Assembly: GCA_017444015.1 (NCBI GenBank)
Contig: JAFSXN010000043.1
Coordinates: forward strand, 1-53,700
Length of the DNA stretch: 53,700 nt
Source of the DNA: Lachnospiraceae bacterium
GTDB lineage: Bacteria; Bacillota; Clostridia; Lachnospirales; Lachnospiraceae
Direction of reading: 5' to 3'
Shown piece after piece: positions 13,196 to 28,835 of the stretch (its first letter is position 1; each line of letters begins with the position of its first letter). Position numbers and translations under genes: made by a program. Below the pieces are notes generated by a model, which was not told where the DNA came from, searched no databases, and was given only the letters and a program-made list of their open reading frames with translations.

Positions 13196-13316
13196 CGCAG
13201 AGCCGCCGGTAGGAAGATGTCAGCTAAAGCTGACCGGCGGCTGCGCAACCTATAATTGCGAAGCAATTATCAGGTCGCGGGCGAGTAGGGTTCGACTTCG
13301 TCTCCCCTACTCGATT
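13196..13316 (+). repeat. Repeat family 2, copy 1 (three-hairpin element)
   Basis: It begins CGCAGAGCCGC and ends CTACTCGATTA, like the copy at 17371-17456, and shares the 15-base string TCGCGGGCGAGTAGG with it. Three hairpins are visible: AGCCGCCGGT/ACCGGCGGCT; ATAATTGC/GCAATTAT flanked by ACCT/AGGT; and CGAGTAGGG/CCCTACTCG. The middle hairpin is absent from copy 2, and the hairpin interiors differ while pairing is kept. It sits between the chemoreceptor terminator and a repeat-family-1 copy, downstream of both flanking genes. It does not match a riboswitch I know. Confidence 0.6.
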
Positions 13317-13319
13317 ATT

Positions 13320-13422
13320 TATACTGGTTAACGTTTTTCATTGCCGATCAATCGGACTCGCAAACGCAATTCCAGTACATTCGCTTTATCATAAGCGGCA
13401 ACTAATTGCGTTCGCGAGTATA
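13320..13422 (-). repeat. Repeat family 1, copy C (103-bp palindromic element, inverted)
   Basis: Read on the minus strand it aligns without gaps to the 103-base copies at 20763 and 27974 with 9 differences by my hand count. It starts TATACTCGCGAACGC and ends GTTAACCAGTATA. The 15-bp stem CTCGCGAACGCAATT/AATTGCGTTTGCGAG is unchanged, and the second hairpin is kept with wobble changes. It lies two bases from the stop codon of the ttcA-like gene. Confidence 0.8.
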
Positions 13423-13423
13423 G

Positions 13424-14404
13424 CTACCCGTCGTAGGTGTCCAGAAAGCTGTGTACGATATCGTCCTGCTTATAAGCCAGGATCGTATTCAGATTCACGT
13501 TTTTGACACTGTTGAAGATATTCGCCTCGACAAAGGGATTATCTTCCTTGAGCTTTTTAATCAGCTTCTTCGTCTCAAGGCGCTTGCTGGTACTTGTCGA
13601 GCATTCCGACTCCTCCAGACTGCAGGCTACCGTTTCGGTAAAGCGGCAGGCGCACCGGATAAATTCCAGTTTATTCGCGTCTCTCCAGGCGATGATATCC
13701 TCCTCACGGATCAGGTACATCGGACGGATCAGCTCGATGCCTTTGAAGTTCTGACTGTGGAGCTTGGGCATCATGGTCTGGACCTGCCCGCCCCAGAGCA
13801 TCCCCATTAAGATCGTTTCGATCACATCATCGTAATGATGCCCCAGAGCGATCTTGTTGCAGCCAAGATCCTCGGCCTTTTTATAGAGATAGCCCCGCCG
13901 CATTCTCGCGCAGAGATAGCAGGGATTTTTTTCGATCTGAAAGACCGTATCATAGATCGGGCTGTCAAAGATCGTTATCGGAATTTCGAGGCGCTTCGCG
14001 TTCTCCTCGATCACCCTCCGATTTATCTCTGCGTAGCCGGGATCCATTACCAGAAATTCCAAGGAAAACGGGAACTTGTCACAGCGCTTTAATTCCTGAA
14101 AGAGCAGAGCCATCAGGGTGGAGTCCTTGCCGCCGGAAATACAGACCGCGATATGATCGCCCGGTTTTACCAGCTCGTATTCCGTTACCGCCCTGGTAAA
14201 GCGGCTGAACAGCTTTTCCCTAAACCTCCGGTTCTTTACGATCGACCGTGCCGGATCGTTCATCGTATCTGCCCAGTTACCCTGGGCAGATACGGCAGCA
14301 GGGGCAGCTTGCGCATTGGAAATGCCCCTGCTGCTTGGCTCTGCTGCTTTATCGGTACGCCTCTCGCAAGTCTGCGAGCGGCTGACGGGGCAGTTATTAT
14401 TCAT
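13424..14404 (-). CDS. TtcA-like PP-loop tRNA thiolation-type protein
   Basis: A PP-loop ATPase of the TtcA (tRNA 2-thiocytidine) family. SGGKDS gives the ATP pyrophosphatase loop (AVCISGGKDSTLMALL), CYLCARMRRG the CxxC pair and GHHYDDVIETILM a conserved helix. Further cysteines (IRCACRF, ACSLEESECS) may complete an iron-sulfur site. The frame is open from ATG 14404, overlapping the kdgK stop as ATGA, giving 326 residues. The first 47 are low-complexity and mostly encoded by a repeat element (14332-14397) and neighbouring hairpins. Family-like sequence starts near MNDPARSIVKNRRFREKLF at ATG 14263, which has no ribosome binding site but a strong hairpin just before it. The true start is therefore open. 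Cotranscription with kdgK is likely but no functional link is apparent. In Firmicutes the exact tRNA target of this subgroup is less certain than in E. coli. Confidence 0.8.
   Translation of the reverse strand: MNNNCPVSRSQTCERRTDKAAEPSSRGISNAQAAPAAVSAQGNWADTMNDPARSIVKNRRFREKLFSRFTRAVTEYELVKPGDHIAVCISGGKDSTLMALLFQELKRCDKFPFSLEFLVMDPGYAEINRRVIEENAKRLEIPITIFDSPIYDTVFQIEKNPCYLCARMRRGYLYKKAEDLGCNKIALGHHYDDVIETILMGMLWGGQVQTMMPKLHSQNFKGIELIRPMYLIREEDIIAWRDANKLEFIRCACRFTETVACSLEESECSTSTSKRLETKKLIKKLKEDNPFVEANIFNSVKNVNLNTILAYKQDDIVHSFLDTYDG
14332..14397 (+). repeat. Repeat family 3, copy X, inside the 5' end of the ttcA-like gene
   Basis: This 66-base stretch aligns with 28420-28486: TGCyTGGCyCTG, then TTTAyCGGyACGCC, AGTCTGCrAGCGGC and GGGCAGTTAT are shared, with about 34 of 45 bases identical in the core. 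It is flanked by two more hairpins (arms GCAGCAGGGGCA and CGTATCTGCCCA). Here it is read antisense as part of the first 47 codons of the ttcA-like frame, with no stop codon. Confidence 0.55.
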
Positions 14405-20681: not shown

Positions 20682-20762
20682 AGTTTTTGGTGAAGAGACG
20701 CGATAGTAAAAGAATTTTGCCTTTTCTTACAGGTATGGTTTAGATATCGTAAACGAATTAAA

Positions 20763-20865
20763 TATACTCGCGAACGCAATTAATTGCCGTTTTTGATAAA
20801 GTAAACGTACTGGAATTGCGTTTGCGAGTCCGGTTGATCGGCAACGAAAATCGTTAACCAGTATA
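20763..20865 (+). repeat. Repeat family 1, copy B (103 bp)
   Basis: Identical over 103 bases to 27974-28076. Outer ends TATACT/AGTATA are inverted repeats. Then comes a 15-bp stem CTCGCGAACGCAATT/AATTGCGTTTGCGAG (one G-T pair) with an AT-rich apical loop, then small hairpins CCGGT-TG-ATCGG and AACG/CGTT. The flanks of this copy extend the palindrome: AAACGAATT before and AATTCGTTT after. It lies in the leader region of the secreted M14 peptidase, 42 bases before its ATG. Confidence 0.85.
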
Positions 20866-20907
20866 AATTCGTTTCCTGATAAATATAGTTCAGAAAGGTT
20901 TGGAAGT

Positions 20908-21864
20908 ATGAAAGTCAATCAAAAGAAGTTATTGAGGTATTTGTCGGGGCTGCCTGCGGCGGTACTGTTCTTTACGGCAGGTCTTTTTCCTTTTCGGGCA
21001 GAGGCGGCCGTACCCTCGATCGTACAGCTTACGTCGACCTATACTTACGCGGAAATGTGCCAGGATATCGCGGAGCTGACCCAGGCGTATCCGGGGATCG
21101 TTTCAAGCGGTGCCATCGGAACCAGCGTACTGGGAAACAGTATTCCGCTGATCATTTTAGGAAATCCCGCCGCTCCGCACAATATTATGATCCAGAGCTC
21201 GATCCATGGGCGGGAATATATTGTGACGCAGACGACCATGGCGACGATCGAGTATTACGCGATGCAGTTCGCTGCCGGGAATTACGCGGACGTTCTGGCT
21301 TCCACCTGCTTCTATATCGTACCTATGGCAAATCCGGACGGCGTTACCATGGCGCAGGCCATTGATTCCAGCTGGAAAGCGAATGCAAACGGCGTAGATT
21401 TAAACCGGAACTTTCCGACTCTATGGGAGCTGACCAAGGGAGCGGCGGCTCCTGGCGCAGCGAAATTCAAGGGCTTTCTTCCCGGCTCTGAGCCGGAGAC
21501 TCAGGCGTTAATGTCACTTGCCATGGCAAGAGACTATTGCTGTTATCTGAACTATCATCAGCAGGGCAATATAATATACTATGATGATGATCTGACCTCT
21601 CCCGTTGTCTCTGCTCTCTCGACGGCGTTGGCTAAGACAGTAGGCGCGATCAACGGGTATGGACTTGTCAACACGGCAGGCTCCAATGCCTCCGGGACGA
21701 CGACCTATGGTGGCTTCGGAGATTTTGTCCTCTTAGGGCTTCAGAAGCCCGGAATCACCGTAGAATGCGGTTCAGCTTATGGCGCAGCCGGCCAGGGCCA
21801 GGCTGCTTCGATCTTTCAGAGAAATGCTGAGAGCTGGGCGGCGGTTGCCAGATTATTCCCGTAA
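20908..21864 (+). CDS. Secreted M14-family zinc carboxypeptidase
   Basis: A 318-residue exported peptidase. The signal peptide (about 1-34) ends FRAEAA with probable cleavage after AEA. The M14 zinc and catalytic residues are visible: His and Glu in SSIHGREYI, Arg in GVDLNRNFP, His in LNYHQQG and the catalytic Glu in TVECGSAYG. Small single-domain M14 enzymes in Firmicutes often cleave cell-wall peptides, so a peptidoglycan or protein substrate outside the cell is likely. GGAAGT lies before the ATG. It is a single gene with a repeat element upstream and a strong terminator downstream. Confidence 0.9.
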   Translation: MKVNQKKLLRYLSGLPAAVLFFTAGLFPFRAEAAVPSIVQLTSTYTYAEMCQDIAELTQAYPGIVSSGAIGTSVLGNSIPLIILGNPAAPHNIMIQSSIHGREYIVTQTTMATIEYYAMQFAAGNYADVLASTCFYIVPMANPDGVTMAQAIDSSWKANANGVDLNRNFPTLWELTKGAAAPGAAKFKGFLPGSEPETQALMSLAMARDYCCYLNYHQQGNIIYYDDDLTSPVVSALSTALAKTVGAINGYGLVNTAGSNASGTTTYGGFGDFVLLGLQKPGITVECGSAYGAAGQGQAASIFQRNAESWAAVARLFP

Positions 21865-21890
21865 CAGACGGACATATAAGAATCTTATAA

Positions 21891-21915
21891 CCCCGCGGCA
21901 TCGCCGCGGGATTTT
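21891..21915 (+). terminator. Rho-independent terminator of the M14 peptidase gene
   Basis: CCCGCGGC-ATC-GCCGCGGG forms a very stable 8-bp GC stem followed by ATTTTC, about 27 bases after the stop. Confidence 0.85.
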
Positions 21916-22025
21916 CAACGTAGATGTGACATAAAAGGGACAGCTCATATGTTATATTCTTCCTGTAAGAAAACGAGAGAAGCTCTTTGGAGAGAAACAG
22001 CTTTCACAGACAGGAGGAATAGAAT

Positions 22026-22217
22026 ATGAGTACAAATTTATGGGTTTACTGGGCAAAGAAGTTACACATCGTGGACGGCGGCGGAAGAGACTGGTACGGC
22101 TACTGCGACGATATCCAGAACGAATGCGATCTGAACGGGGATTCGATCATTCTTGAAACGAAGAACGGCTATAAGGAATTTTTCCGGAGCAATATCCGGC
22201 TGATCGAGTGCGCCTGA
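22026..22217 (+). CDS. Small LSM-like conserved protein
   Basis: A 63-residue cytoplasmic protein behind a strong site (AGGAGG, 7 bases before the ATG). The pattern of beta strands (VYWAKKLHIVDGGGRDWYGYCDD, DSIILETKNGYKEFFRSNIRLIE) resembles the short Sm/LSM-like family common in Clostridia, in which the last strand reads EFF-x-S-x-I-x-x-I. The function of that family is unknown; RNA or peptide binding is only an analogy. It lies just upstream of the secretion locus but is separated from essC by two hairpins, so membership is uncertain. Confidence 0.7.
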   Translation: MSTNLWVYWAKKLHIVDGGGRDWYGYCDDIQNECDLNGDSIILETKNGYKEFFRSNIRLIECA

Positions 22218-22601
22218 TCGTCGACTGATACAACCGAAAACAGACAACCGTCTATCGAAAACAGACAACTGACAGCGCGGCAGATGCCTTATCGTATTTC
22301 CTCTGATAAAATGAGCAATAACGCAAGACCGCTTAAATTCGTTGTTTTTGGATCGCTGAAATTTTGTCTGTAGAATTTTGGGCTGACGGCACGGGTCTTT
22401 TTTGGTAAAATTGCCGTCTTGTATTTCCGATATCCCTGTGCTATCATTCAAGGCACTTAGAGGAGAACTCCTTTAAGTGTCTTGTTTTTTTCTATATCAT
22501 TTTATATTCAGTTTCGGGGAGCGGCTGCTTCCCGTCGAAAGCGGATCCCAAACGGGAGACTTTCAGGGTGGTTATCCCACCGATATTCATTACTAAGGCT
22601 T
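22218..22601 (+). other. Intergenic region between the LSM-like gene and essC
   Basis: The 384 bases contain no gene I can support. Seen are: a 14-base direct repeat CGAAAACAGACAAC at 22235 and 22256 (period 21, two helical turns); an inverted pair GACGGC/GCCGTC around 22385-22420; the strong terminator 22452-22491; and a GC-rich imperfect hairpin GGGGAGC/GCTTCCC near 22516-22532. No promoter of good quality was found before essC. Confidence 0.5.
22452..22491 (+). terminator. Strong rho-independent terminator upstream of essC
   Basis: GGCACTTAGAGGAG-AA-CTCCTTTAAGTGTC forms a continuous 14-bp stem (two G-U pairs), followed by TTGTTTTTTT. It insulates essC from upstream transcription. Confidence 0.88.
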
Positions 22602-25600
22602 ATGAAAATCACCGCGCTGGTGTGTAATTCTTCCTATGTATTGGAAAGTGTGATCAGAAATGGAGAAACAAAGGAGCTAAAAGCAGAGAGACAGTTTTTT
22701 TGTTTGCAAAGAGATCTGTACCTTATTTTTACAAATGACGGAGAGGCTCTCAGAGTCACTTACGGAGAGGAGGCGGACAGCCTGACAGAAACGGAGGTCC
22801 ATACCGATACCAATACGGACGCAATGCTTCCTCTACGTACAAGAAACGGTGAGACGCTGATCCTGCTTCTGTACTTTTTGCGGGACGATTCCGATTTCTT
22901 AGGATTATTCGGACTTTGTGAAGGCGGGGAGATCAGTGTCGGCAGAGCGGATACCAGTACGATCCGGACACCGGGACTGCCTCTCCTGTCGTCCAATCAT
23001 CTGAGGGTGTTTTTCGAAAATGGTGTCACAAGTCTTGAGGTCTATGGAGAGAATGGATGTTATGTAAACAACAGGTTCTTTGCGAAAAAAGAAAAGCTGA
23101 GGCTTGATTTCGGCGATGAGATCATTCTGTATGGACTGAAACTTACTTGGCTAAAGGAATATTTTGCAGTTTTCTCATACAGTGATCTAAAAAGATCAGA
23201 GCCGCTTCCTTCGGTCGCGATCTCTCCGGAACTGAATGAATATGATTTATGTAAACTGAATATCCTGTGCAATTCCGCTTCGGAAATTACGGCGCGTCAA
23301 CCGGTACATCCGATTCCGCGGACGATCCGGCGCTTTGATCTTTCGCCGGTCCGTCTGGATGCGCCGCCCCATAAGCAGACACGCAGAGAGGAATCCCTTT
23401 TTCTGACCATCGGTCCGGCCTTTTCCATGGCGGTACCGATGCTTCTCGGCTCCGGCCTTGCGATCTATGGAAACCGGCAGAACAACTCTTCCGGCGGAGC
23501 TTTCCTCTATACCGGTCTGATCACGGCTGTATCCGCCGCGATGCTCGGAGCTTTCTGGGCGATCTTAAATCTGAGAAGGAGACAGAAGGAAGAGAGAAGA
23601 AACGAACGGCGCAGGGCTAAGGCTTACAGCAGGTATATGAAGGAAACGGAAGCGGGAGTTTTTCAGAGATATACACATAACAGGGAGGTGTTGTTTTATA
23701 TGAATCCGGCGATCGCAAAGCTGTCCGAAGGGATCCTTCTTCCCTATTTCTGGAACCGTTCTCCCGCGGATGAAGATTATCTCTCGATCCGACTCGGGAT
23801 CGGTACCTATCCCGGAGTTTCGGTTAATCTTGAGGTGCCCGCAGAGCGCTTTTCTGTTGAGAGCGACAGGATGCAGGAGCTTCCCGCAAGACTTCAGGAA
23901 AAATACGGGCTGTTAAAGGAGGTTCCGATTTCTGTGGATCTTCAGACGGAGTACTTGTTCGGTCTGGTTTCCTCAGACGGATTAAAGAGGCTTTCTCTCC
24001 TGTTTCTTGCAGCGCTGCAGCTTTCCTATTTTATCAGTGCCGCACAGCTCCTCCTTGCCTTTTTCTTTACGGGAGATACCCTGCCGGAGAGCGGTCTGCT
24101 CCTTCTTCGTTTCCTGCCCCATATCCGGGAAGAAGAGGCTTTCTTTCTCTGTATCGGGTCAGAGCAGGTCAGAGAAGGAAGAAAAAGACTTTCGGAGCTG
24201 ATAAAAAAAGAAAGGCTGAACGGGACGAAGCGGGAGAGGGTCATTTTCTCCGACGATTACGTCACTGTAAAGGATCTTCTTTCCGAGGAGAGCCATACCA
24301 GACTCCTGCTTGTAAAGGAGCGTTATGAGGAGCTTCCCAAGGAATGTCGTGTTGTCCTGCAAAATGATCCGGACTTTCACGGGATCCTTCATACAAGAAA
24401 CCTGGAGGGAAGCACGACCGTTGCCTTTGATCCGGTTGCTCCTACGGAAGCGGAGCGGATCGTAAGGAGGCTTGCCGGGGCCGGTCCGTTTCTACGCGGG
24501 GCAAAGACCGGGATCCCTGACAAGGTCTTTCTGGAGCAGATCCTCGGGATGCCGGTAACGGGGCTCTATGAGCAGATACTGAAGAACTGGAGAGAAAACG
24601 ATACGCTGACGGATCTGAAGATCCCCATCGGGATCGCGGGCGATGGCCAGATCTGCTATCTCGATCCGCATGAGAATGCCCATGGTCCGCATGGACTGGT
24701 TGCGGGGATGACCGGAAGCGGAAAGAGCGAAATGCTGCAAACTTTGATCCTGTCGCTTTTGATCCGGTTTTCTCCGAAGAAGGCAGCCTTTTTCCTGATC
24801 GATTATAAGGGCGGAGGAATGGCGGAGCTGTTCAAGGGGCTGCCCCACATCTGCGGAAGTATCTCGAACCTTTCCGGAAGCCATGTGTATCGCGCCATGG
24901 TCTCGATCCGAAGCGAAAATGAGCGGAGGCAGAAGCTGTTTCTTGCTGCCGGTGTGAACAATATCCGGGAATATGAAAAGAAACATATGACAGGGCAGGT
25001 AACCGAGCCTCTTCCGCATATCTTCATTATCATTGACGAATTCGCGGAATTGAAAAAGAACGAGCCGGAATTTATGCGGGAGTTAGTCAGCGTGGCTCAG
25101 GTAGGGAGAAGCCTTGGGATACACCTGATCCTTGCCACCCAGAAGCCCCAGGGTACTGTGGATGATAAGATCTCAGGCAACGCGAGATTCAGGATCTGCC
25201 TTCGGGTACAGGATAAGCAGGACAGCTTCGATATGCTGAAAAAACCGGACGCAGCGCTTTTGACGGGTGTAGGAAGAGCCTTTTTACAGGTCGGCAATGA
25301 TGAGGTCTATGAGGAATTTCAGGGGGCCTATACTATGGCGGCAGGATCCGGAAGAAAGAAGAGAGAAGCGATCCTGCTGCTGTCCGAACATGAAAACGGA
25401 GACGTTAGGACAGCGTTTAACGGAGGATCTGGCGAAAAAAGAGAACTGCTAAAGCAGGAGGGCGACGCAGGATCGCCGCAGGAGACGGGAACGGAGCAGA
25501 TCAGTGATTTTTATCTGATCAAGAGTTTTATAGCCGCTGCCGCGAAGGAAACCGGAATTGAAGCGGCCAGACAGCTTTGGACTAAGGAACTGCCGGAGGA

Positions 25601-27116
25601 GGTCATCCCGGATATGAGTCATAAAACGGACAGTTATATTTATCCGGTGGGACGTTTTGACGCGCCGAAAAGGCAGGAGCAGGGAGTCTTTTATCTGGAT
25701 CTGAATCAGAGCGGTCATATCGCGGTACTGGGAAGAAGCGGTTGTGGAAAAAGCACCTTCCTTCAGATGTTTTTGTATGCCTGTATCGCAAAGGAGAAAC
25801 CGCAGGATCTGTCCATTTATATTCTCGATTACGGCAACTCCGCTCTTTCCGCCTTTCGGGAGAGCAGACTGTCGGGAGCGTGGCTGACCGAGGAGGAGGA
25901 AGAGAAAACAGAAAATCTTTTCATTTTGCTGGCTAAGGAAATGCTCCGAAGAAAGAGCGAATTCGAAGGAGTGAGCTTTCAGGTCAAACGGAGTATGGGC
26001 GAAGGGACTACGAACCGGATCATGCTTGTGATCGATAATTTCGGGGCCTTTCGAGTAAAAACCAGGGAGAGGTTCGACGGTCCGATCCGCGAGCTGTTAA
26101 AAAACGGAGAAGCCTATGGGATTACTCTGGTTCTGACAGCCGGGGGACTTTCGGCTTCGGATCTTCCGGCCAGAGTTCACGAAGGGATCAAAACCGTGAT
26201 CTGTCTGTCCTTTTCCGATCGGATGCAGTACGCCCAGGCACTTCGGGCAGTCAGGTGCGAGGTTTTTCCGGATGACAGGGTCCGGGGCAGAGGGCTTGCT
26301 TTTGTCGGATCAGAGCTTCTGGAATTTCAGACGGGACTGATCTGCAAGGGCAATGATTATGAAAGGCAAGTTTTCTTACGGGACAGGATAAAGAAGCGGA
26401 ATGCAGAATGCTTAGGAGCCTGTGCCAGACCGGTACCCTTTATCCCAAAGCACGCCGATCTGAATGATCTGATACGCGCGGCCCGGGCGGAAGGCTTTTC
26501 CTTTACACAAGAGGCTCAGGTCCTTCCGGCAGGCTTTCAGGTCCGGGGAGGCGAGGTCTGGTATGTGCCGCTTGAGGGCAGCTGTTTTCTGGTCTCCGGA
26601 AGAAAAAAGAGCGGAAAAACAAATCTGGTCCGTATCCTTCAGACGATAGCAGAGCTTTGCGGTCTTATGGTCTGTTCTGTGACAGAACCGGAGGAGTTAA
26701 ACCGGATCCTTAAAGAAGACCAGGAGAAAAAGAAATTGATCGTTTTTAAGGAGATTGCGGAGAATTTGAACCGGTTTTATGAAAAGAGCTTTGACAGACA
26801 GCTGGAAGCGGAGTTGATCGAGAGGATCACAAGCGAAAGGAACAGGGGTTTAAGCTGCATCGTTCTCGAATGCTCCAGAGAGGATACCATCGCCCTAAGC
26901 GGCCGCAAGCTGTTTGAGGAGCTTAAAAGCGAGGCTTTAGGAGTACATCTTGGCGGTATGATCAATGATCAGAATCTGTTCGATTTTTCGGAGCTTTCCT
27001 TTACGCAGAAAAACAGCTCGAAAAAAGCCGGAGAAGGGGATGTTCCCTGTGTATTGGAAGAGCAGTTTTACGGGGAGGTGAGGATACCGGTATGGGTTCA
27101 GAGGAACGATACATAG
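22602..27116 (+). CDS. essC: T7SSb motor ATPase EssC (FHA - FtsK/SpoIIIE x3)
   Basis: A 1504-residue membrane ATPase powering type VII secretion. The N-terminal region has an FHA fold (about 105-190) that keeps the phosphothreonine-binding set: GR at 114-115, Ser130-x-x-His133 and Asn in YVNN. Two membrane helices lie at about 267-290 and 302-323. Three FtsK/SpoIIIE ATPase modules follow: D1 Walker A GMTGSGKSEM (Lys708) with Walker B IIIDEFAEL; D2 GRSGCGKST (Lys1050) with the second acidic position changed (LVIDNFGAF); D3 GRKKSGKT (Lys1339), with a poor Walker B (LIVFKEIAE). An intact D1 and degenerate D2/D3 are usual for EssC. I start at ATG 22602; the upstream frame to 22482 runs through the terminator. 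The esaB-like gene overlaps its end by 25 bases. Confidence 0.93.
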   Translation: MKITALVCNSSYVLESVIRNGETKELKAERQFFCLQRDLYLIFTNDGEALRVTYGEEADSLTETEVHTDTNTDAMLPLRTRNGETLILLLYFLRDDSDFLGLFGLCEGGEISVGRADTSTIRTPGLPLLSSNHLRVFFENGVTSLEVYGENGCYVNNRFFAKKEKLRLDFGDEIILYGLKLTWLKEYFAVFSYSDLKRSEPLPSVAISPELNEYDLCKLNILCNSASEITARQPVHPIPRTIRRFDLSPVRLDAPPHKQTRREESLFLTIGPAFSMAVPMLLGSGLAIYGNRQNNSSGGAFLYTGLITAVSAAMLGAFWAILNLRRRQKEERRNERRRAKAYSRYMKETEAGVFQRYTHNREVLFYMNPAIAKLSEGILLPYFWNRSPADEDYLSIRLGIGTYPGVSVNLEVPAERFSVESDRMQELPARLQEKYGLLKEVPISVDLQTEYLFGLVSSDGLKRLSLLFLAALQLSYFISAAQLLLAFFFTGDTLPESGLLLLRFLPHIREEEAFFLCIGSEQVREGRKRLSELIKKERLNGTKRERVIFSDDYVTVKDLLSEESHTRLLLVKERYEELPKECRVVLQNDPDFHGILHTRNLEGSTTVAFDPVAPTEAERIVRRLAGAGPFLRGAKTGIPDKVFLEQILGMPVTGLYEQILKNWRENDTLTDLKIPIGIAGDGQICYLDPHENAHGPHGLVAGMTGSGKSEMLQTLILSLLIRFSPKKAAFFLIDYKGGGMAELFKGLPHICGSISNLSGSHVYRAMVSIRSENERRQKLFLAAGVNNIREYEKKHMTGQVTEPLPHIFIIIDEFAELKKNEPEFMRELVSVAQVGRSLGIHLILATQKPQGTVDDKISGNARFRICLRVQDKQDSFDMLKKPDAALLTGVGRAFLQVGNDEVYEEFQGAYTMAAGSGRKKREAILLLSEHENGDVRTAFNGGSGEKRELLKQEGDAGSPQETGTEQISDFYLIKSFIAAAAKETGIEAARQLWTKELPEEVIPDMSHKTDSYIYPVGRFDAPKRQEQGVFYLDLNQSGHIAVLGRSGCGKSTFLQMFLYACIAKEKPQDLSIYILDYGNSALSAFRESRLSGAWLTEEEEEKTENLFILLAKEMLRRKSEFEGVSFQVKRSMGEGTTNRIMLVIDNFGAFRVKTRERFDGPIRELLKNGEAYGITLVLTAGGLSASDLPARVHEGIKTVICLSFSDRMQYAQALRAVRCEVFPDDRVRGRGLAFVGSELLEFQTGLICKGNDYERQVFLRDRIKKRNAECLGACARPVPFIPKHADLNDLIRAARAEGFSFTQEAQVLPAGFQVRGGEVWYVPLEGSCFLVSGRKKSGKTNLVRILQTIAELCGLMVCSVTEPEELNRILKEDQEKKKLIVFKEIAENLNRFYEKSFDRQLEAELIERITSERNRGLSCIVLECSREDTIALSGRKLFEELKSEALGVHLGGMINDQNLFDFSELSFTQKNSSKKAGEGDVPCVLEEQFYGEVRIPVWVQRNDT

Positions 27117-27430
27117 AGCTGTATTTTCCGCAGCTGTGTAAAAGCCTTGATCTTATGGTCCCAAAGGATACTTTGACAGGACGGCTGTCCGAGGCAGCGC
27201 TTTCAGAGCTTGGACTTTTGAATGTCGAATGTATTATGCTCTCCTGTGTTTTGGAAAAGCTGCTTGCGCCTTTACGGACCATAGAGGAGGAGGGGGTCGG
27301 ATCCGGAGATAAGCTGATCGTTTTATACAAATACAGGAAGGAGCAAAGAAACTATGCAACAGGCGACGTTAGTGGCGGAGTATACCAGGATGAACAGGGA
27401 TATGGTCCGAATGGGGAAGCTGATCCTTGA
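27092..27430 (+). CDS. EsaB/YukD-like ubiquitin-fold protein
   Basis: A 112-residue frame whose first about 78 residues fit the YukD/EsaB ubiquitin-like component of type VII systems: YIELYFPQLCKSLDLMVPKD (strands 1-2), a helix, and LLAPLRTIEEEGVGSGDKLIVL ending with the typical GDxLxxL. Residues from about 85 on (RNYATGDVSGGVYQDEQGYG) have no family counterpart because the frame overlaps the next gene by 77 bases. The protein may simply carry a tail, or the stop was lost. It starts inside essC with GGAGGTGAGG upstream. In other T7SSb loci EsaB is an essential cytosolic regulator. Confidence 0.72.
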   Translation: MGSEERYIELYFPQLCKSLDLMVPKDTLTGRLSEAALSELGLLNVECIMLSCVLEKLLAPLRTIEEEGVGSGDKLIVLYKYRKEQRNYATGDVSGGVYQDEQGYGPNGEADP

Positions 27431-27659
27431 GATCGTAAAGGCGATCGACGTCTTGCAGGAAAACGTTGAAAGGCTGGATATCTCATGGAGCGGGGAGGCC
27501 AATACACAGTTTATGCTTGCATTCTATGAGGATTTCAACAAAATGCGCAATATTACGGAGGATATGCTGCGGCAGAAAAAGCTGCTTCGAAACGCCATTG
27601 ATGAGTATCAGAAGGCGGAGCTTTCCGTCCGGGAGAAGGTAAAGGAGATCAGGATATGA
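27354..27659 (+). CDS. WXG100-family protein 1
   Basis: A 101-residue helical hairpin protein. W45-S-G47 (DISWSGEANTQF) marks the turn and YQKAE near residue 89 resembles the YxxxD/E type VII export signal. Length is that of a classical WXG100 substrate. AAGGAG lies before the ATG, which is within the 3' part of the esaB-like frame. The next gene overlaps by ATGA. It probably pairs with the protein encoded by 27656-27964 as a heterodimer. Confidence 0.85.
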   Translation: MQQATLVAEYTRMNRDMVRMGKLILEIVKAIDVLQENVERLDISWSGEANTQFMLAFYEDFNKMRNITEDMLRQKKLLRNAIDEYQKAELSVREKVKEIRI

Positions 27660-27964
27660 ACGCGTTAAAATCAAGAAAGGAAATCGAGATCAATTTTGTA
27701 AGAGCCTGCGATCAGTCGGCTGAGTTAATAAAAATCTCCTCCAGTCTCTATCGGATCGCTCAGTCGGATATGGCAGAGACCATGGTCATGCTACGGGATA
27801 GCTGGAGGGGAGGCAGCGCCGGGAGCTTCTATGATAAAACCGCGGAGCTCAGAGAGCAGCTGATGTCCAATGCGCAGGATCTTGTAAAAATCGCCGACCA
27901 TATCCATCATACCGCGGATATCATCTACCACGCGGAATTGATCGCGATCGGCGTCAGTAACTAA
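27656..27964 (+). CDS. WXG100-family protein 2
   Basis: A 102-residue helical hairpin protein with W50-R-G52 (LRDSWRGGSAGSFYDK). The C-terminal IIYHAELIAIGVSN has a Tyr but no clean YxxxD/E, unlike the other three, which fits a partner protein whose dimer mate carries the signal. Translation is coupled to WXG100 protein 1 (ATGA overlap; AGGA just before the ATG). A family-1 repeat starts 10 bases after the stop. Confidence 0.82.
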   Translation: MNALKSRKEIEINFVRACDQSAELIKISSSLYRIAQSDMAETMVMLRDSWRGGSAGSFYDKTAELREQLMSNAQDLVKIADHIHHTADIIYHAELIAIGVSN

Positions 27965-27973
27965 GGATGCGCT

Positions 27974-28076
27974 TATACTCGCGAACGCAATTAATTGCCG
28001 TTTTTGATAAAGTAAACGTACTGGAATTGCGTTTGCGAGTCCGGTTGATCGGCAACGAAAATCGTTAACCAGTATA
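27974..28076 (+). repeat. Repeat family 1, copy A (103 bp)
   Basis: Identical to 20763-20865 over all 103 bases. Its flanks again extend the outer stem, but with different sequence: GCGCT before TATACT and AGCGC shortly after AGTATA. It fills most of the 151-base gap between the second and third WXG100 genes, so it would be in the mRNA, 40 bases before the next ATG. Confidence 0.85.
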
Positions 28077-28115
28077 AATCAGCGCTTCCCAAATTTTAAG
28101 GAAAGGAGAACAGAT

Positions 28116-28415
28116 ATGGGTTACATTCAGGTGACAGCTTCTCAGCTGCGGAACAAGGCGGAGGAGCTTCGGAATCTCAACGGAAATTTCAGCACACAGG
28201 TCGAGACATTACGGACGACCGAGGAAGCGCTGAAAACCATGTGGGAGGGAGAGGCGAATACCTCCTTCCACAACGCCTTCGTACGGGACAAGGGGCAGAT
28301 GGACAGCTTTAAGCAGGCTATCGACTCCTATATCAACGCCCTTGTTACCATCGCGGGGAAATATGAGGAGGCGGAAGCAAAAAACGCTGCGGTTGCCTCC
28401 GCCAGGTCCTATTGA
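28116..28415 (+). CDS. WXG100-family protein 3
   Basis: A 99-residue protein with W43-E-G45 (LKTMWEGEANTSFHNAF) and YEEAE near the C-terminus (GKYEEAEAKNAA), so both the fold marker and an export-type motif are present. It is the most canonical EsxA-like member here. AAAGGAG precedes the ATG. It lies between repeat elements of families 1 and 3, so its mRNA is bracketed by structure. Confidence 0.9.
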   Translation: MGYIQVTASQLRNKAEELRNLNGNFSTQVETLRTTEEALKTMWEGEANTSFHNAFVRDKGQMDSFKQAIDSYINALVTIAGKYEEAEAKNAAVASARSY

Positions 28416-28419
28416 TCAG

Positions 28420-28486
28420 TGCCTGGCCCTGATACCTTTACCGGCACGCCGTTTATCAGTCTGCAAGCGGCCGGCCGGGCAGTTAT
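28420..28486 (+). repeat. Repeat family 3, copy Y, between WXG100 genes 3 and 4
   Basis: It shares with 14332-14397 the blocks TGCCTGGCCCTG, TTTACCGGCACGCC, AGTCTGCAAGCGGC and GGGCAGTTAT. It begins five bases after a WXG100 stop. It contains GCCGGC-type dyads (GGCCGGCC) and could act as a partial terminator or processing site. The final CCGGGCAGTTA also occurs in the terminator at 33918-33947 and, slightly changed, at 47286, so the family may derive from terminator sequences. Confidence 0.5.
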
Positions 28487-28520
28487 CGAAAACGAATCAT
28501 AGGAAAGGAGAAAATCATTT

Positions 28521-28835
28521 ATGGAAGGAATACTCAAGGTCACACCGGAAAAACTGATACAGGCATCCAATGAATTCAGCCAGACCGGAAAAACGATCCG
28601 CTCTCTGACGAGCGAGATGCTTTCGATCGTAAACGGCTTAAAATCAATCTGGCAGGGCGAGGCGGCGGAAAGCTACAGCAGCCGCTTTTCAAGCCTTCAG
28701 GACGACATCGAGAAGATTGGAAGAATTATAGACGAGCACGTTAATGACCTGAACGAGATGGCGAGGGAGTACCAGAACGCGGAAAGCGCCAGTCTTGAGG
28801 CCAGCAGCTCGCTTATGTCTGATATCGTGAGCTGA
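28521..28835 (+). CDS. WXG100-family protein 4
   Basis: A 104-residue protein with W44-Q-G46 (LKSIWQGEAAESYSSRF) and the YxxxE motif YQNAE in AREYQNAESASL. AAAGGAG lies upstream and the stop TGA shares its last base with the ATG of the vWA gene (TGATG). It may pair with WXG100 protein 3. Residues after the motif (SLEASSSLMSDIVS) are Ser-rich, as often seen in exported members. Confidence 0.88.
   Translation: MEGILKVTPEKLIQASNEFSQTGKTIRSLTSEMLSIVNGLKSIWQGEAAESYSSRFSSLQDDIEKIGRIIDEHVNDLNEMAREYQNAESASLEASSSLMSDIVS

Follow-up and report, generated by a model that had tools for sequence, protein, structure and literature searches.

Like the 103-bp element described here, Correia elements insert at TA and have TATA ends, and REP/BIME repeats with RAYT, like elements derived from IS200/IS605, are palindromic intergenic repeats. 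The Correia elements of Neisseria are described as short, palindromic and present in more than 100 copies, and promoter and RNase III roles have been reported for them (PMC10969869). RUP of Streptococcus pneumoniae is described as a 107-bp element with 110 copies in one genome and ends like those of IS630-Spn1 (PMC3049150), and ISY100, an IS630 element, is reported to insert almost solely at TA, with duplication (PMC2170065).

The window (the whole stretch of DNA that was analysed, 53,700 nucleotides from a Lachnospiraceae bacterium) holds three full-length copies of a 103-bp element. Direct comparison bore out the sequence-only reading, which had described two identical copies and an inverted third: the copies at 20763-20865 and 27974-28076 (both + strand) are identical at 103 of 103 bases, and the copy at 13320-13422 (- strand) differs from them at 9 of 103 positions, all of which, by eye, lie outside the arms of the stems S1 and S2. 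This third copy, which represents a second subfamily, adjoins the stop codon of an ORF on the minus strand (13424-14404). Both features reported earlier, TATACT/AGTATA ends and a stem of 15 bp, are present, the stem with one G-T pair; in the 20763 copy its arms, supported by family covariation and referred to here as S1, lie on the plus strand at 20767-20781 (CTCGCGAACGCAATT) and 20814-20828 (AATTGCGTTTGCGAG). A possible second stem, S2, interleaved with S1 and suggested by weak covariation, would pair TTGCCG at 20784-20789 with CGGCAA at 20839-20844 (+ strand). No ORF of at least 100 aa overlaps any copy in the window, in agreement with the claim that the element lacks coding sense, and the two plus-strand copies do lie, as had been proposed, in the leaders of genes, namely a peptidase M14 gene and a WXG100 gene (28116-28415, 50.2 bits). 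The gene that precedes the 27974 copy (27656-27964) is WXG100-like, its likeness being weak (23.2 bits, under the cut-off of 27.3).

By the terms of the sequence-only reading, a genome with only these three copies would have counted against its proposal; the genome (assembly of 3.77 Mb in 201 contigs, 94% complete) instead contains no fewer than 156 full-length copies. We built a covariance model on 29 copies, and it gave at least 150 full-length matches. Among the 10 exact copies of the 13320 sequence, 6 are absent from those 150 (the 13320 copy itself included in both numbers), which brings the total to at least 156. With the 103-base sequence as query we found at least 27 identical copies among the 40 of 226 candidates that were scored. 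A pattern made from the ends matched 242 times, some of these matches being to an inner arm, compared to once for a reversed control. Among the loci examined, subfamilies have up to 26 identical members and are mostly 103 bp long, with a few of 110 bp. Ten of 129 copies lie inside ORFs of at least 90 aa, and 21 of 129 overlap one partially. At 103 bp, without coding sense and with at least 156 copies, the element is short, non-coding and numerous, and its ends form terminal inverted repeats, as in a MITE.

How the element entered its sites can be seen at 5 of the 129 copies with usable flanks, for which joining the left and right flanks through one TA gives a sequence that is found uninterrupted, with matches of 30, 30, 35, 39 and 54 bases (L007, which is the 20763 copy, L011, L017-, L104 and L096); two further cases were self-matches across adjacent elements and are left out of this count. 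All five are in two hairpins of a single repeat family, repeat-2, and all five are at TA, the insertion site of the IS630/Tc1-mariner type; within the same repeat-2 loop there are two insertion points, each at TA then AAT. At the 20763 copy the interrupted repeat-2 hairpin has its left part at 20744-20762 and its right part at 20866-20874, and the joined flank equals the uninterrupted sequence at L066 over 30 bases. The junction TAs are at 20763-20764 and at 20864-20865, the latter followed by AAT. The TA at the left junction may be a target duplication or a single TA common with the element, which are indistinguishable because both element ends read TATA; we favor the former, in which case the junction TA would be the duplicated target.

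The target preference (TA then AAT) is one-sided and common to different species. In the genome of the window AAT follows the right end in 70 of 129 copies, as against 5 of 129 with the mirror-image ATT before the left end, and in other genomes the corresponding numbers are 41 of 72 and 5 of 72; the first three right-flank positions are A in 77%, A in 81% and T in 84%. A longer element ending in AGTATAAAT was ruled out, because repeats without an insertion have this AAT too.

The sequence-only reading had also noted that the bases flanking two of the copies pair with each other. At 20763 this pairing (AAACGAATT/AATTCGTTT) is real, and it belongs to the hairpin of another dispersed palindromic repeat, in whose loop this copy lies; at 27974, by contrast, the pairing of GCGCT with AGCGC (5 bp) is within chance. 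Across the genome 14 of 129 copies, picked by a left-flank motif, are nested in palindromic repeats of other families, which agrees with the suggestion that the element enters palindromic sites, but the excess of flank pairing in the other 115 copies is slight. Flank stems of at least 5 bp number 28 in all 129 copies (13.4 when flanks are permuted) and 15 in the 115 non-nested copies (10.6 permuted, P 0.1). In the non-nested copies, stems of at least 6 bp number 4 (3.1 permuted, P 0.37) and the mean flank stem is 3.27 (3.10 permuted, P 0.04). A preference for palindromic targets is thus not clear by permutation outside the nested copies and, given how little excess is left without them, the apparent palindromic target is mostly nesting in loops that offer TA-AAT.

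A search of 145 related genomes with the 103-base sequence (threshold 1e-5) matched two, the genome itself and, weakly, G020 of the same genus; in G017 and G020, both of this genus, the gap corresponding to the 27974 site lacks the element, the spacers themselves not being alignable. As the main subfamily has many near-identical copies and matches only 1 of 144 related genomes, weakly, it should be possible to trace recent bursts and insertion alleles. Together, the at least 27 identical copies, the five exact empty sites and the two genomes of the same genus without the 27974 copy support well the earlier suggestion of a recently moving non-autonomous element.

The family as a whole is wider. 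A looser pattern for the 5′ end matched at least 36 loci in a genome collection, mostly with Lachnospiraceae titles; around some pattern matches (e.g. in Micavibrio and Clostridium records) no element was seen by eye. We then applied the covariance model (E 0.001) to 16 other genomes picked for holding a pattern locus, and each had from at least 1 to at least 98 copies, these counts being lower bounds as 150 candidates were scored in each: at least 98 in UBA7188, at least 61 in Blautia sp. RGIG5147 and at least 11 in UBA3814. The last of these is of the same genus as the window's own genome, its copies are diverged and were found by this model, which is more sensitive than the 103-base query, and it has the locus of G020 in common. 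The titles of 14 of the 16 genomes name Lachnospiraceae, Blautia or Lachnoclostridium, and those of the other 2 only Eubacteriales or Clostridiales. Length is nearly constant, at 99-104 nt in 87 of 98 reads extracted from other genomes with 72-111 nt allowed, and in AD3010 and related MAGs there is a 78-bp form from which most of the loop of S1 is missing but which keeps both S1 arms. Plasmid and phage records gave no match to the element, and viral contigs gave 1, 0 and 1 matching stretches, neither of the two with a second end by eye.

We compared the pairing of S1, S2 and the terminal repeats in two alignments. The 98 reads from other genomes, which include doubles read from both ends, were reduced to 72 (68 distinct) by keeping those of 95-112 nt in which no fewer than 6 of the 9 S1 pairs formed in the best register; such a filter favors pairing. 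The main alignment (A3, 52 rows) consists of 50 of the 68 distinct elements, picked by hand, and 2 from the window's own genome; it leaves out that genome's main subfamily, near-identical rows, the G153 type, L157, L183, L260, L309 and others. The smaller one (A2, 17 rows) was made by hand from 24 elements of other genomes and two of the own genome, minus three 78-bp forms, L154, L157, L159, L160, both L183 reads and the main own subfamily. The patterns used to find loci allowed both letters at the varying positions of the S1 5′ arm and left the 3′ arm untouched.

It is unusual that covariation across genera is found in the inner stem S1 and not in the terminal repeats. In A3, 91.2% of the cells of S1 (columns 8-16 with 50-58) are paired, and 38 cells are changed on both sides, compared to 13.0 in shuffled alignments (0 of 500 as high) and to lower numbers in all slid versions; A2 agrees. 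When each of 13 genomes contributes a single row, S1 exceeds shuffles in 200 of 200 draws (median p 0.005), and Fitch counts on a tree made without the arms give about 6, 3, 1 and 3 coincident both-side changes in columns 9-12. S1 pairing is kept while its letters change. The two measures least fooled by relatedness show no excess over shuffles, neither for S1 (5 pairs changed on both sides versus 3.9, and 12 further pair types versus 11.9) nor for S2 (3 versus 2.7, and 9 versus 8.8). At least 7 of the 9 S1 pairs are kept in 70 of 71 distinct elements, compared to 41.8 (at most 51) when interiors are shuffled, a figure computed without the S1-pair filter.

For S2 (columns 22-27 with 79-84) 17 cells of A3 are changed on both sides, versus 8.1 shuffled (0 of 500), and coincident changes number 2, 2 and 2 in columns 22, 24 and 27 on the same kind of tree. 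We downgraded this evidence because two slid versions exceed S2 in double-change pairs and pair types and because only 65.5% of per-genome draws (13 genomes) reach p 0.05 (median p 0.03), so that the covariation is only suggestive of a real stem. If both stems form they would, being interleaved, together make a pseudoknot. S1 and the pairing of the ends are mutually exclusive. The terminal repeats (columns 1-17 with 89-105) are paired in 81.1% of cells in the 52 sequences, with 3 cells changed on both sides versus 6.3 shuffled (486 of 500 as high; one slid version gives 24) and 0 of 200 per-genome draws (13 genomes) above shuffles. They are conserved in their letters and not via pairing, as is expected of ends bound by a protein.

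Taken together, we consider it likely, with a probability of about 0.82, that the element is MITE-like, non-autonomous DNA of about 103 bp that is inserted at TA by an enzyme acting in trans via the conserved ends. Such an enzyme would recognise the terminal inverted repeats (TATACTnnnnAACG), and the element would enter TA sites preferentially in the orientation that puts AAT next to its right end. S1 would then presumably act as DNA, either during movement or by preserving the integrity of the element.

As to the enzyme, our best guess, to which we give roughly even odds, is a mobiliser of the IS630/Tc1-mariner type. The single DDE_3 match in the window's own genome belongs to a 1.2-kb element of the IS630 family, which has two frames and the ends TATAGTAAACGAATTAA; these ends are close to repeat-2 and resemble those of the 103-bp element in layout only (TATA, T, AACG, AATTAA). 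Of 18 other genomes with the element, 5 have DDE_3, and copy number is weakly higher where it is present (P 0.048, or 0.11 without the own genome, the counts being lower bounds and the own genome entered as 150). The element's end motif, with one mismatch allowed in its short form, was not seen at six DDE_3 loci. The ends of such loci were rejected as a source of the element, the end pairs seen there being of other kinds; in Blautia sp. RGIG5147, with its at least 61 copies, the end sequence at the transposase locus is TATAGTAAACGAATT, similar to that of the own IS630. In four longer stretches that surround isolated ends, the only facing end pairs were those of known copies, and single near-matches to the end motif at one DDE_3 locus (L187) and one Y1 locus (L225) were taken as chance. 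Among the DDE_3 and Y1 loci examined, in assemblies that are fragmented, there was no IS or transposase with matching ends. The main point against an IS630-type mobiliser is the one-sided target, since a symmetric TA transposase is expected to have a symmetric one.

That asymmetry (AAT on the right, rarely ATT on the left) is what would be expected if the element were moved instead as a folded single strand by an HUH enzyme (IS200/IS605-like or RAYT-like) that recognised the inner stem and inserted without duplication at ATTTA, read on the other strand. Covariation of S1 and the junction TA, which is compatible with insertion without duplication, would suit this mechanism as well, and of 11 other genomes with the element, 7 have a Y1 transposase. 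The own genome, however, has the highest copy number seen and, in its 94% complete assembly, no Y1 match; twelve Y1 loci scanned for the end motif gave the one near-match at L225 and no facing pair; and terminal repeats that are conserved in letters and do not covary resemble the ends used by double-strand transposases. Moreover, the exceptions to S1 pairing, 18 G-T and 15 A-C, favor neither strand. We therefore regard single-strand mobilisation as distinctly unlikely. The same near equality weakens the reading of the element as RNA made from one strand, in which case G-U should outnumber A-C. A structured RNA (a regulatory element or a small RNA), dispersed as a repeat and acting on neighboring transcripts, might account for the compensatory changes in S1, for the possible pseudoknot with S2, for the two window copies in leaders and for the fold of 20750-20880, which, pairing flanks included, is stabler than 200 of 200 shuffles on both strands (z -4.1 and -4.7). 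Yet copies show no significant preference in gene orientation. A simple rule that takes the longest frame called genes on either side of 84 of the 129 copies, and around these the strands are +/+ in 29, -/- in 25, +/- in 16 and -/+ in 14 (29 versus 25, P 0.68), and neighbors within 250 nt number 40 plus and 29 minus on the left (P 0.23) and 45 and 37 on the right (P 0.44). Nor did a comparison with Rfam 15, which the sequence-only reading had thought worth making, give any match in the window at gathering scores or at the element in 15 loci, where the one sub-threshold match (L234:2086-2203) lies away from it. These results, together with the transposon-type terminal repeats and the TA empty sites, make a structured RNA highly improbable: the part of that earlier proposal that stands is that S1 pairing is constrained, and the part that does not is a tie to one strand or to gene orientation. 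In the light of the missing strand and orientation bias and of the Rfam result, the element is best seen as mobile DNA with a paired interior and not as an RNA gene, although its transcripts may well fold.

The covariation of S1 could also arise within an ordinary MITE, by template switching during replication that homogenises an imperfect palindrome. Complementarity of the S1 arms is indeed kept without strand preference, 43 of 52 rows have one of six fully complementary states at the four variable S1 pairs (the two most frequent states occur in six and in five genomes), and S2 covaries weakly. The terminal repeats, however, are likewise inverted and show no such homogenisation, 70 of 71 distinct elements preserve S1 although their interiors otherwise differ, and the 78-bp deletion form retains it, so that we think homogenisation possible but on balance somewhat doubtful. 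A more far-reaching conjecture, fairly unlikely in our estimation, is that this is a long-lived family of near-constant length (about 100 nt) across Lachnospiraceae genera whose movement needs the inner stem, perhaps as a pseudoknot-like S1/S2 structure, and a reader of the target (TA-AAT) on one side, the mobiliser being either an IS630-like transposase whose complex is asymmetric or an undescribed enzyme that acts on single strands. If this were true, selection would be acting on the element as a structured substrate, and it would not be the deletion remnant of an IS.

The MITE-like element described here adds a large repeat family to the Lachnospiraceae, a major family of gut and rumen bacteria, and a limited literature search gave no description of it in the sources as far as they were covered. 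Should movement depend on the one-sided target and the covarying S1, the family would offer a test of how gene-less elements are recognised, unlike a MITE recognised by its ends only. Like REP/BIME repeats with RAYT and IS200/IS605 elements, it is palindromic and intergenic, and its one-sided target would fit such systems, but its terminal repeats are conserved in letters and its own genome has no Y1 match. With IS630/Tc1-mariner elements of the ISY100 type (PMC2170065) it has in common the TA target and the TA at each junction, and an IS630 with ends of similar layout is present in its own genome; unlike them it has no transposase gene, its ends differ and its target is one-sided. Set side by side by description, Correia elements resemble it as short palindromes in more than 100 copies (PMC10969869). 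RUP, as described, resembles it in size, copy number, dispersal, nesting with other repeats and the mobilisation in trans by an IS630 that has been proposed for it (PMC3049150), but it occurs in other hosts, and S1 covariation, a one-sided target and the lack of an IS with matching ends are, in a comparison made by description, features of our element. By analogy, then, RUP and Correia elements appear to be nearest to it in kind.

The second palindromic repeat (repeat-2), whose hairpin in the window is interrupted by a copy of the 103-bp element, occupies window positions 20744-20874 and is also found at L066:660-760 and L075:1029-1130, with a layout in which a hairpin, TCGTAAACGAATTAAATAAATTCGTTTACGA, is followed by TGCGCACG and then by another hairpin. 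The end of repeat-2 is similar to the ends of the IS630-family element in the window's own genome. The same hairpin layout is seen in a 146-bp repeat (L053:1519-1664, L094:318-463 and L116:595-740) with ends of the TATACT type, one of which comes close to the 103-bp element's right end. Adjoining the 103-bp copy at 13320 is an apparent third dispersed palindromic repeat, CGAGTAGGGGAGACGAAGTCGAACCCTACTCG (window 13270-13319), which was recognized by eye and also lies near copies of the element in L040 and L075.

In AD3010 and related MAGs the element takes a 78-bp form (L155:4057-4134, L158:7045-7122, L169:5852-5929 and in L171). Because its flanks are alike at several sites, this form may itself be part of a larger repeat.

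One copy of the 103-bp element lies within a type VII secretion-like locus (window 22482-28835), in which an FtsK/SpoIIIE-type protein of 1544 aa is followed by WXG100 proteins.

The IS630-family element at L078:1357-2555 comprises two overlapping frames that join at a run of about nine A residues on the coding strand, an arrangement like that of frameshifted IS elements.
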